From Labilithrix sp. (lineage in GTDB: Bacteria; Myxococcota_A; Polyangia; Polyangiales; Polyangiaceae): a DNA stretch of 64,000 bases. The stretch covers positions 29,383-93,382 of the forward strand of contig JAHBWF010000011.1 of assembly GCA_019637105.1 (NCBI GenBank), written 5' to 3'. This document shows positions 13,215 through 18,627 of the stretch, piece by piece; the first letter of the stretch is position 1; each line of letters starts with the position of its first letter. The position numbers were made by a program, and so were the translations under genes. Below the pieces are notes generated by a model. It was not told the DNA's origin. It searched no databases and saw nothing but the letters and a program-made list of their open reading frames with translations.

Positions 13215-13285
13215 AGCGGTGACCGAGAATCGCACTCGGATCTCGAGCGTGGCGGGCTCGGGTTCTACTCTTGAACTACCACCGC
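13215..13285 (-). tRNA. tRNA-Gly (GCC)
   Basis: Acceptor GCGGTGG/TCACCGC, discriminator U as expected for Gly; anticodon arm CGAGC-CCGCCAC-GCTCG, with C instead of U at position 33. Elbow type AG/TGC (D-loop AAGAGTA, T-loop TGCGATT). Confidence 0.87.
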
Positions 13286-13362
13286 GAAGTCGGGCCCTCG
13301 CGGGCCGGGGACGCCGCGCCGCGGGCGAAGGCATCCACCTTCACGCGGGCGCGGTCGTTTGG

Positions 13363-13436
13363 AGCCACCCGAGGGACTTGCACCCTCCTCGTTCCTCGTT
13401 ACCAGTGAGGTGCCCCGCTGTCTGGGCGTGGGCGGC
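13363..13436 (-). tRNA. tRNA-Thr (GGT)
   Basis: Acceptor GCCGCCC/GGGTGGC, discriminator U (A is usual); anticodon arm CCTCA-CTGGTAA-CGAGG. Elbow type AG/TGC (D-loop AGACAGCG, T-loop TGCAAGT). Confidence 0.86.
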
Positions 13437-13592
13437 GAGACGGGCTCGGAGCTCGCGCGCCGAGCCCGGCGACGAGACGTGACGCGGGATGGTTTCGTTC
13501 GGCGTCGTGTTCTCCTCTCCGAGCAGAGTGGTGGTCGAGCCGGACGCGCGTGCTCGCGCGCGAGGGCTCGGGTGCGTGACGTGGACGCGTGG

Positions 13593-13983: not shown

Positions 13984-14011
13984 GGCGCAACTCGGTTGCG
14001 CCGATCCCGAG
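13984..14011. repeat. Hairpin repeat, copy 1 (GGCGCAAC-TCG-GTTGCGCC then GATCCCGAG)
   Basis: Eight-bp stem with a 3-base loop followed by GATCCCGAG. Related copies at 18054-18082 and 28238-28267. The first two share the continuation GAGTGG. Role unknown. Confidence 0.6.
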
Positions 14012-14077
14012 TGGGCATCGGCACGAGCGAACGCGCCGGGCGAGGACGAGGCGGCCGTGTCGGAGGAAGCATGTCGG

Positions 14078-14695: not shown

Positions 14696-15229
14696 TCAGG
14701 CGGAGAGCGGCGCCGACGCAGCGCAGCCGTCGCAGTACGGCTGCCAGACGTCGGGCAGCTCACCCTCGTCGAGGCGGAGCGGCGGCACGACCGGCAGGGA
14801 CGCCGGCTTCTTCGGCTGCCGCAGCAGCTTCATGCCGGCCTGCTCGGGCGTGCGGCTCCCTTTGCGATCGTTGCACGCGTAGCAGGAGGTGACGATGTTC
14901 TCCCAAACGGTCTTTCCTCCCTGCACGCGCGGGATGACGTGGTCGTAGTTCAGCTGCCGGATGGGCTTCTTGTCGCCGCAGTATTGGCAGCGGAACTTGT
15001 CGCGCGTGAACACGTTCACGCGGGAGAAGCGGACCGACTGCTTCGTCGACACCGACCCCTTCTTCAGCCGAACGACGGCGGGCGCGAGCATCGCGACGCT
15101 CGGGGCGCGGAGCTCCGCGTCCCAGGTCTCGATGACCTCGACCTTGCCGAGCCAGGTCAGGACGACGGCGCGCTGCCACGAGATGATCTTGTGGGGCGCC
15201 ATCCAAGGGGTCAGCATCAGCGTTTGCAT
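14696..15229 (-). CDS. HNH endonuclease inside the tRNA array
   Basis: 177 aa from ATG 15229 (MQTLMLTPWMAPHKIISWQR). It has the signature of a widespread single-domain HNH family: an N-terminal 'WQRAVVLTWLGKVEVIETWD' region, then VFTRDKFRCQYCGD (first zinc CxxC), NYDHVIPRVQGG (catalytic DH), TVWENIVTSCYACNDRKG (HNH Asn plus second CxxC) and SRTPEQAGMKLLR. It is the only protein gene inside the array and lies on the same strand as the tRNAs. The family is common on chromosomes without a known role. A link to tRNA array mobility or to processing is possible but unproven. Codon use looks like the neighbouring chromosomal genes. Confidence 0.9.
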   Translation of the reverse strand: MQTLMLTPWMAPHKIISWQRAVVLTWLGKVEVIETWDAELRAPSVAMLAPAVVRLKKGSVSTKQSVRFSRVNVFTRDKFRCQYCGDKKPIRQLNYDHVIPRVQGGKTVWENIVTSCYACNDRKGSRTPEQAGMKLLRQPKKPASLPVVPPLRLDEGELPDVWQPYCDGCAASAPLSA

Positions 15230-15771: not shown

Positions 15772-15844
15772 TGGACGAGTCGGGAGTCGCACCCGATCCA
15801 TCTGCTTGCAAGGCAGACGTCTTCCCTCGAAGACAAGCCCGTAA
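15772..15844 (-). tRNA. tRNA-like, anticodon TGC (Ala), poorly paired acceptor
   Basis: Clear anticodon arm TCTGC-CTTGCAA-GCAGA and T-arm with TGCGACT. The best 5' acceptor strand (TTACGGG) pairs with CTCGTCC at only five of seven positions, and there is no G3.U70 Ala identity pair. D-arm GTCTTC-GAGG-GAAGAC has a 6-bp stem and 4-nt loop. AG/TGC elbow type. Possibly degenerate or affected by a base-call error. Confidence 0.6.
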
Positions 15845-16414: not shown

Positions 16415-16487
16415 TGGAACCGGCCGGACTCGCACCGGCAACCTCCTCGATGCCGTCGAGGCGCTCTCCTCGCTGAGCTACGGTCCC
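16415..16487 (-). tRNA. tRNA-Ala (GGC)
   Basis: Acceptor GGGACCG/CGGTTCC contains the G3.U70 pair that defines Ala; discriminator A. Anticodon arm CCTCG-ACGGCAT-CGAGG (C33). AG/TGC elbow type (D-loop AGCGAGGA, T-loop TGCGAGT). Confidence 0.9.
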
Positions 16488-17278: not shown

Positions 17279-17350
17279 CACTCCCGATCGGAATCGAACC
17301 GATACCTTCCGCTTGAAAGGCGGAGATCCTGACCACTAGATGACGGGAGC
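17279..17350 (-). tRNA. tRNA-Glu (TTC)
   Basis: Acceptor GCTCCCG/CGGGAGT (G1.U72), discriminator G; anticodon arm CTCCGC-CTTTCAA-GCGGA; T-loop TTCGATT, D-loop with TGG. Confidence 0.92.
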
Positions 17351-17357
17351 GAGAGAG

Positions 17358-17496
17358 GTTCGTCCGAGTGTGAAGGCCGTGTCTTTCGACGGCTGACTGG
17401 CCGGTGTCTTTCCAGTTGACTACGCTGACGATTCGTCAGCGGTTGGATTCGAACCAACATACCCATTGCGTGTTGGGCCTACGCGGTCGGACGAAG
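17358..17496 (-). tRNA. Permuted tRNA unit A (3' half precedes 5' half), anticodon unclear
   Basis: Transcription order on the minus strand: leader P1 CTTCGTCCG, ACC, P2 GCGTAGGCC, CAACACGCA..., T-arm GTTGG-TTCGAAT-CCAAC, acceptor 3' strand CGCTGAC, G, four bases (AATC), acceptor 5' strand GTCAGCG, D-arm with TGG, anticodon region, P2' GGCCTTCAC, ACT, P1' CGGACGAAC. The acceptor pairs perfectly although its strands are in reversed order with almost no spacer. The anticodon stem (CGGC-CAGTCA-GCCG) has a 6-nt loop; anticodon perhaps GTC, and a base may be missing. Confidence 0.75.
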
Positions 17497-17616
17497 AGAG
17501 CGGCATCGCGAGGGAGGAGACGCCGGGAGCGGTCGCGCGTGCGCGGGCTCGCTCGCGGCTCTCGCGAGGCCGAGGTCCGTCGATCGGTGCGTGAATCGAC
17601 GTGACCCGAAAGGGGC

Positions 17617-17820
17617 CATCGCCCGAGTGAGGAAACCAGGTGCGTTTTCGTTCCGTAGACGAATGCCTTGTCCACTAGGCTACTGGCACGTGAGCTCGAG
17701 GGCTCGGCGAGCGAGCGCTCGGGCGGAGCGCGCGCAGCCGGGGCTGCGCGGCGCTCGGGGTGCCAGGTTGGATTCGAACCAACGTAGGTTTGCGTGTAGG
17801 GTCTCTTCGAGCGGGCGATG
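17617..17820 (-). tRNA. Permuted tRNA unit B, anticodon ACG (Arg)
   Basis: Leader P1 CATCGCCCG, CTC, P2 GAAGAGACC, CTACACGCA..., T-arm GTTGG-TTCGAAT-CCAAC, acceptor 3' strand CTGGCAC, then about 70 bases of spacer, acceptor 5' strand GTGCCAG (7 of 7 pairs), D-arm GCC...GGC with TGG, anticodon arm TTCGT-CTACGGA-ACGAA, P2' GGTTTCCTC, ACT, P1' CGGGCGATG. The intact anticodon and acceptor show it is a tRNA whose halves are in reversed order, broken in the variable region. Confidence 0.8.
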
Positions 17821-17997
17821 AGCATCGTGTCGCGCCGTGGTCGGCGCAGAGCGTGAGCGGGACGCGCTCGAGCGATCGTCGAGGCGCGTCGGGCGGGAGA
17901 GGTAGCGCCGGGTCAGGCGGGGCCTGCCCGGCGTGGAGCTCGCGGTGAGCTCGGCGAGCGGGCGCGTCGAGGCGCGACGCGTCGCTGCGGGAGTGTT

Positions 17998-18213
17998 CCT
18001 TCGTCCGAGTGGAGGAGCCGGTCGTCTTCTCAGGACGAGGCCTCACCGATGAAGGCGCGGCTCGGTTTGCGCCGATCCTGAGTGGCGTTGGGCTGCGCCG
18101 ATCGCTGCGTGAGGACGTCGGCGGGCGGGGTGCGTCAGGCTGGAGAGCCGCCAGCGCGGCGAGTCCGAACCACCATCTCGCGTGGCGAGTCGACGTCTCC
18201 AGGCGGGGGAAGG
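17998..18213 (-). tRNA. Permuted tRNA unit D, anticodon GAG (Leu), degenerate
   Basis: Leader P1 CCTTCCCCCG (8 of 10 pairs), CCT, P2 GGAGACGTC (7 of 9), T-arm GGTGG-TTCGGAC-TCGCC, six extra bases, acceptor 3' strand GCGGCTC, U and encoded CCA; spacer; acceptor 5' strand GAGCCGC, D-arm CTTC-ATCGGT-GAGG, anticodon arm TCGTC-CTGAGAA-GACGA, P2' GGCTCCTCC, ACT, P1' CGGACGAAGG. The encoded CCA supports the 3' end. Weaker helices and the 6-base insert suggest decay or sequence error. Confidence 0.6.
18054..18082. repeat. Hairpin repeat, copy 2
   Basis: GGCGCGGCTCGGTTTGCGCC followed by GATCCTGAG; the stem is GGCGC/GCGCC. It overlaps the 5' acceptor strand of permuted unit D. Related to 13984-14011 and 28238-28267. 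Confidence 0.5.
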
Positions 18214-18248
18214 CGGGCGCTCGGCCGATCGAGCTGCGTGGGCGAGGG

Positions 18249-18320
18249 AGCCCACGTCCGGAATCGAACCGGATCCTCCCGAGTACGAGGCGGGCGCTCG
18301 GCCAATCGAGCTGCGCGGGC
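18249..18320 (-). tRNA. tRNA-Thr (CGT)
   Basis: Acceptor GCCCGCG/CGTGGGC, discriminator U as in the other Thr tRNA here; anticodon arm CCCGC-CTCGTAC-TCGGG; GG/TTC type. A near copy of its 5' half (acceptor, D-arm, GCCCGCC) occurs at 18212-18242, apparently a broken duplicate. Confidence 0.88.
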
Positions 18321-18402
18321 AGGGTGCTCGCGGTGCGCGCGTCTCGCCCGCTGCGCGAGGCAGAGAGCGAGACGCGCGCCGGCGCGAGCAGAGTGAGAAG
18401 GT

Positions 18403-18552
18403 GTTCGTCCGAGTGAAGAAGCCGTTGCGATGTGCTCGTGCTTGAAACGAGTGCCTTTACCGTTTGGCTAGCGGCCCGGCCTTGCGGCGTGTGGGCCACG
18501 TTGGAGTCGAACCAACATGGGGTGCGTGTAGGGACTCTTCGGGCGGACGAAG
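18403..18552 (-). tRNA. Permuted tRNA unit C, anticodon CAA (Leu)
   Basis: Leader P1 CTTCGTCCG, CCC, P2 GAAGAGTCC, CTACACGCA..., T-arm GTTGG-TTCGACT-CCAAC, acceptor 3' strand GTGGCCC, A, about 14 bases, acceptor 5' strand GGGCCGC (7 of 7 with one G.U), D-arm GCC...GGC with CGG, anticodon arm CTCGT-TTCAAGC-ACGAG, connector, P2' GGCTTCTTC, ACT, P1' CGGACGAAC. Three bases separate it from tRNA-Asn upstream. Confidence 0.8.
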
Positions 18553-18555
18553 GAG

Positions 18556-18627
18556 CTCCAGCGGAAGGAATCGAACCTTCGAAGGGCCGGTTAACAGCCG
18601 GCGGCCTGACCATTCGGCTTCGCTGGA
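18556..18627 (-). tRNA. tRNA-Asn (GTT)
   Basis: Acceptor TCCAGCG/CGCTGGA, discriminator G; anticodon arm GCCGG-CTGTTAA-CCGGC; GG/TTC type. Confidence 0.94.

Follow-up and report, generated by a model that had tools for sequence, protein, structure and literature searches.

Permuted tRNA-like RNAs in a myxobacterial tRNA array: probable Y RNAs of a divergent Ro60-like protein

Results

Permuted tRNA-like units within a tRNA array

The DNA analysed here, referred to as the window, is a 64,000-nucleotide (nt) stretch of contig JAHBWF010000011.1 of Labilithrix sp. It carries a tRNA array with 32 normal-order tRNAs detected by ARAGORN. Within this array, on the minus strand of 17358-18552, stand three tRNA-like units whose parts follow each other in permuted order, A (17358-17496), B (17617-17820) and D (18403-18552), together with a poorer one, C (17998-18213). 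The evidence below suggests that these units are noncoding RNAs of the Y RNA class and that a divergent protein, predicted to have the Ro60 fold, is their partner. A preliminary description, made from the sequence alone, had proposed four permuted units. The positions it gave for A, B and D are exact, but C proved to be diverged and interrupted, and neither of the two models used in this work (R1 and R2) finds it whole.

Read from the 5' end, A, B and D run through P1, a loop, P2, the junction CYACACGCA, the T-arm, the 3' acceptor strand and a linker, followed by the 5' acceptor strand, the D-arm, the anticodon arm, a junction, P2', ACU and P1'. P1, a 3x3 internal loop and P2 form an outer stem that joins the 5' and 3' ends of the molecule, and the motifs CYACACGCA and CACUCGG flank the units; both the stem and the motifs had escaped the preliminary description. 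The acceptor strands, which it had seen pairing over seven bases in all four units despite their reversed order, do so in A, B and D. Its reading of the anticodons in three units was right (ACG in B, CAA in D and GAG in C, that of A being irregular). The CCA that it had reported for unit D, on the other hand, is not found at positions 74-76, since ACAC comes right after the seven acceptor bases GUGGCCC.

Unit D has the anticodon loop UUCAAGC and a linker of 15 nt. The 5' strand of its P1, UUCGUCCG, lies at 18544-18551 (all features of the unit being on the minus strand) and covaries in the 101 units described below, and the junction with the conserved CUACACGCA lies at 18517-18531. The remaining parts, likewise backed by covariation, are the 5' strand of P2 (18532-18540), the T-arm (18500-18516), the 3' acceptor strand GUGGCCC (18493-18499), the 5' acceptor strand GGGCCGC (18471-18477), the D-arm (18453-18468), the anticodon arm (18435-18451) and the final segment made of the 3' strand of P2, ACU and the 3' strand of P1, which contains the CACUCGG motif (18404-18423). 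Unit B has the anticodon loop CUACGGA and a linker of 70 nt (17690-17759), and unit A an irregular anticodon loop and a linker of 5 nt. Two pairs of P1 are altered on both sides in B as compared with A and D, and the helix is kept. Minimum free energy folding yields all six helices in D, all six with a shifted anticodon loop in B, and only part of the structure in A. The z-scores against 200 dinucleotide shuffles are -6.6 for B, -3.7 for A and -2.9 for D, and the pairwise identity among the three units is 61-69%.

Unit C gave no match to model R1 at E<=10, and model R2 finds only a partial match at 18196-18273 (25 bits, E 0.05). Aligned with its orthologues at L036:674-867 and L037:8962-9155, unit C carries an extra stretch in the region of its 5' acceptor and D-arm, which marks it as a copy that has diverged or been broken. 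The sequence CACTCGGGATCGGCGCAA is present in unit C with one mismatch and in one further copy in the array, and a longer pattern occurs once in the same genome. Two copies of CACTCRGGATCGGCGCAA lie at 13996-14013 and 18067-18084 on the minus strand, one of them within the interrupted unit C. The array also holds a gene for a 177-aa HNH endonuclease (14696-15229, minus strand), whose cluster is present in eight compared loci including the window, and two tRNAs (15772-15840 and 16415-16487, minus strand) that are recognised by the Rfam tRNA model and not by ARAGORN. Small or self-splicing ribozymes were not detected with Rfam in the window at the gathering cut-offs, nor in 17300-18600 at E<=10.

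Conservation and covariation of the units

Model R1, built from units A, B and D and given an artificial linker of 5 nt, was searched against 184 genomes of the order. It matches 26 of them, in 16 of 83 genera, at E<=0.01, the best match outside the source genome having an E-value of 2.8e-19. Seven of the 26 genomes were set aside because their E-values exceed 1e-6, which leaves 19 strong carriers: the source genome and 18 others. This limit, as well as the full-length and 70-bit limits used below, was picked after the tables had been seen. The normal tRNAs of the array match R1 and R2 weakly. The supposition of the preliminary description that a permuted tRNA family exists in this lineage thus holds in that the units are distinct and conserved in related genomes, but their being decoding tRNA genes is unsupported, as argued further on.

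All six helices covary in an alignment of 101 units (99 distinct), including P1 and P2 of the outer stem as well as the anticodon stem (helix 6), in which five pairs show double changes. In this alignment 93.8% of the cells are paired, 32 of the 37 pairs have a change on both sides, and 869 cells show double changes, compared with 81-125 in slid controls and with none of 500 shuffles as high; these figures are favoured by an alignment that had been fitted to the structure. In a second set, made up of 33 viral-contig units of which 30 are distinct, 92.3% of the cells are paired and 344 cells show double changes, against 32-74 in the controls. Three further R1 matches (L046:6893-6976, L043:7269-7365 and L056:1814-1939) consist of the outer stem and the junction motif with no recognisable tRNA part, and perhaps represent a shortened version of the RNA.

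A candidate partner: a vWA protein predicted to have the Ro60 fold

At seven loci without a gene of the TROVE (Ro60) family, the units adjoin a conserved gene encoding a protein of ~580-600 aa with a C-terminal vWA domain. Full-length matches to this protein were found in 21 of the 184 genomes, after 17 of 38 matching genomes had been set aside because their best match covers the vWA part only (34 bits or less). The protein is present in 18 of the 19 strong carriers and in 3 of the 165 other genomes (p 6e-21), and in 11 of 12 carriers once the seven discovery genomes are left out. The exceptions are G154, which has units without the protein, and G136, G155 and G170, which have the protein without a strong unit; in G155 a weak R2 match (37 bits) lies upstream of the vWA gene. 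Across 377 genomes of the phylum, all nine with an R2 match over 70 bits encode the protein, two of them outside the order; the remaining 26 of 35 R2-matching genomes scored under 70 bits and were set aside. Eight of the 17 carriers of the protein in the phylum, which form a divergent subfamily, lack strong units.

In many myxobacteria one to seven units immediately precede the vWA gene. We collected 71 named loci, most of them titled as Myxococcota and a small number as Planctomycetota, Verrucomicrobia, proteobacterial or unclassified. All 93 R1 matches in these loci are on the strand of the vWA gene, a unit lies at most 2 kb upstream of the gene in 45 loci, and two or more units are present in 26, up to seven in L153. 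Myxococcus xanthus AM003 (L134) has two units upstream of its vWA gene. The genus of the window is arranged differently. Its RNAs lie within the tRNA array, away from the protein gene: in all eight of its carriers the units and the full-length vWA gene are on different contigs, and in the source genome the gene lies at G000:C223:58396-60219 (protein P0002) and the units on contig C13.

The structure of the vWA protein was predicted with a pLDDT of 84. The first eight Foldseek matches of this predicted structure are all Ro60/TROVE proteins (E 4.7e-9 to 6.1e-7, TM-score 0.40-0.51), and 419-447 of its 578 residues align to 9kop, 9nep and 1yvp. The protein is predicted on this basis to adopt the Ro60 fold over its whole chain. 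It shares with Ro60/Rsr a helical N-terminal part and a vWA domain with a D-x-SGS-M motif, the metal-site motif D-x-S-x-S being present as FLIDKSGSM in the aligned rows. Unlike in known Ro60/TROVE proteins, however, Pfam recognises the vWA domain only and not TROVE, and the sequence similarity is mostly C-terminal. When the partner profile was searched against the sequences of solved structures, no E-value was better than 2e-6 and the matches were mainly vWA-containing proteins.

Neighbouring genes and viral contigs

Downstream reading frames were clustered in 49 of the 71 loci. The main clusters are a ~315-aa protein (41 of 49 loci), a JAB-like protein (40) and a ThiF-like protein (18). The ~315-aa protein is encoded downstream of the vWA gene, for instance at L134:7677-8666 (plus strand) and in relatives; its representatives match no Pfam or NCBIfam family, the L134 and L120 copies match no Pfam family, and PADLOC has no family for either this protein or the vWA protein. 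The JAB-like representatives score 21-22 bits with Prok-JAB, below its cut-off of 25, and the ThiF-like ones exceed the ThiF cut-off. By eye only, an 82-aa frame in L110 resembles ubiquitin; it matches no family.

The system extends to contigs classified as viral. A pattern scan returned 39 IMG/VR loci, of which four (L193, L194, L196 and L212) carry strong R2 units; ARAGORN detects 38, 35, 4 and 1 tRNAs in these stretches, respectively, and two of the four, L196 and L212, carry the gene for the vWA protein as well. A first, narrower protein scan had found one locus. With a wider profile of the protein we obtained 50 IMG/VR loci, six of which were set aside as weak, leaving 44 strong ones on contigs of up to 619 kb. 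Among these 44 stretches, 24 hold a total of 33 units at E<=1e-6, all 33 on the strand of the gene; some of the stretches are near duplicates, and their viral status is as assigned by IMG/VR. A plasmid collection gave no match. PMC7824862 mentions, for some jumbo phages, TROVE proteins that have a tRNA-like partner.

Discussion

The closest known relative of the units is YrlA, a bacterial Y RNA which, according to a review (PMC8394870), resembles the D, T and acceptor arms of tRNA and binds Rsr at its stem and PNPase at its tRNA-like domain. The same description is supported by PMC7790460 and PMC4726728, the former presenting a decoy role for the tRNA-like domain as proposed and not shown. The Rfam model of YrlA (RF02553) runs from a stem through the T-arm, a closed acceptor hairpin and the D-arm back to the stem, with no anticodon arm. 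The units have the same long outer stem from end to end (P1/P2) and the T-arm, closed acceptor hairpin and D-arm in identical permuted order, and in many loci, though not in the window, they lie near a gene for a protein with a predicted Ro60 fold (45 of 71 within 2 kb). They differ from YrlA by a full anticodon arm, the CUACACGCA junction and another partner protein, and RF02553 scores them below its gathering cut-off of 69 bits. The M. xanthus unit reaches 43.8 bits (E 4e-8), and the units matched by both RF02553 and R1 in G169, G106 and G105 are all under the cut-off. The model has no match in the window at gathering and none on units A, B and D at E<=10. Sub-cut-off matches to RF02553 were also seen in or beside the array at L041 (G121:C81:27169-27311) and L059 (G128:C566:8719-8828).

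Circularly permuted tRNA genes occur in red algae and archaea, and the units share with them a tRNA 3' half that precedes the 5' half. Were the units genuine genes of this kind, cutting of the linker by RNase P and 3' processing would release a two-piece or ligated decoding tRNA. The complete permuted cloverleaf and the place of the window's units among tRNA genes would fit such a product, as would the seven-base anticodon loops of 84 of the 101 units, with U33 in 68 and a purine at 37 in 74 of the 84. NCCA, moreover, starts 14 of the 101 linkers, several of them from close Myxococcus relatives, and may carry some meaning. Viral-contig units have seven-base loops in 26 of 33 cases, with a purine at 37 in all 26 but U33 in only 15. 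The linkers argue otherwise: they measure only 3-9 nt in 75 of the 101 units, closing the acceptor as a hairpin, and reach 70 nt in the genus of the window. The 84 loops display 36 triplets, 12 having A34, and four of the loops carry a stop anticodon; the triplet is not kept between orthologues, those at array position D being CAA, CAA, CGU, CGU, GUC and UUU, with a six-base loop in one genome. The units thus lack the stable anticodon identity of a circularly permuted tRNA gene. They also possess a conserved outer stem that a tRNA does not need, they co-occur with one protein, and normal-order tRNAs are present in the same array. Because the acceptors are mostly closed by 3-9-nt loops and the triplets differ between orthologues, the units do not look like decoding tRNAs. 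A decoding permuted tRNA, or a two-piece tRNA made by linker cutting, was rejected on the basis of the short linkers, the unstable triplets and the outer stem, and we hold it to be very unlikely. Permuted two-piece tmRNA (RF04321) is likewise a bacterial permuted tRNA-like RNA; its model has no match in the window at gathering and reaches only 16.3 bits on the L153 units, compared with a cut-off of 47.

The permuted order and the outer stem, both as in YrlA, could also mean that the units are classical YrlA RNAs that have merely diverged, with the known Ro60/TROVE protein, Rsr, as their partner. Five sister genomes (L037, L038, L041, L044 and L059) do have a TROVE gene inside this array, although the window (at 13285-13590) and L042 have none there. 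Over the 184 genomes, however, the TROVE profile matches 59, namely 4 of the 19 strong carriers and 55 of the 165 others (p 0.44), with no match in the source genome (91.5% complete). Known Ro60/TROVE was rejected as the partner for this lack of association, and since the units have an anticodon arm besides, we judge this explanation very unlikely. The diverged and interrupted state of unit C, as well as the weak matches of the array's normal tRNAs to the models, might point to degenerate tRNA duplicates or to chance pairing in a GC-rich tRNA array. Matches in other genomes with E-values down to 2.8e-19, and covariation far above that of the slid controls, rule this out for A, B and D and leave it with next to no probability.

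We consider it probable that the units are Y-RNA-class noncoding RNAs which form a branch beside YrlA and are partnered with a divergent Ro60-like ring protein. The analysis shows the structure and conservation of the units, their co-occurrence and linkage with the protein, and its predicted fold; the binding of the two and a function as tether or bait are what we infer. In our judgement the system is a genuine variant form of the Ro60/Y RNA particle. The partner would be the divergent protein described above, helical in its N-terminal part, with its vWA domain at the C-terminus and predicted to fold like Ro60, and it most likely binds the stem of P1, 3x3 loop and P2 with CUACACGCA and CACUCGG. 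The remainder of the RNA would fold as a complete tRNA cloverleaf opened in the variable region and with a hairpin closing its acceptor, the order being permuted because the ends of the molecule form the outer stem. Such units would mimic the elbow and the anticodon arm of tRNA without translating. By analogy with Rsr, YrlA and PNPase, the RNA may tether the ring to an enzyme that recognises the shape of tRNA. Alternatively, it may bait enzymes that cut or handle tRNA. Either role would serve RNA quality control or conflict.

A broader and more tentative proposal is that Myxococcota and huge phages possess a second Ro60-class ribonucleoprotein. It would combine a divergent ring with several full-length permuted tRNA mimics, which mostly keep U33 and R37 in their anticodon loops and vary the triplet, and in some loci with a ubiquitin-like conjugation cassette. 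Where phages and bacteria are in conflict, it might serve to bait, divert or sense enzymes that cut tRNA. We did not find such an RNA-protein pair described in the literature covered, which lay mostly outside subscription journals, and this is a weak indication of novelty.

If this interpretation is correct, it would explain how bacteria can have a whole tRNA in permuted form without a splicing endonuclease, since the ends of the molecule serve as a protein-binding stem. The Ro60/Y RNA system would also gain a new candidate partner and reach genomes in which no recognisable Ro60 was detected, including that of Myxococcus xanthus AM003, a relative of a laboratory organism. The variable anticodons, the place of the units in a tRNA array and their presence on large viral contigs would then link Y RNAs to tRNA damage and to the conflict with phages.
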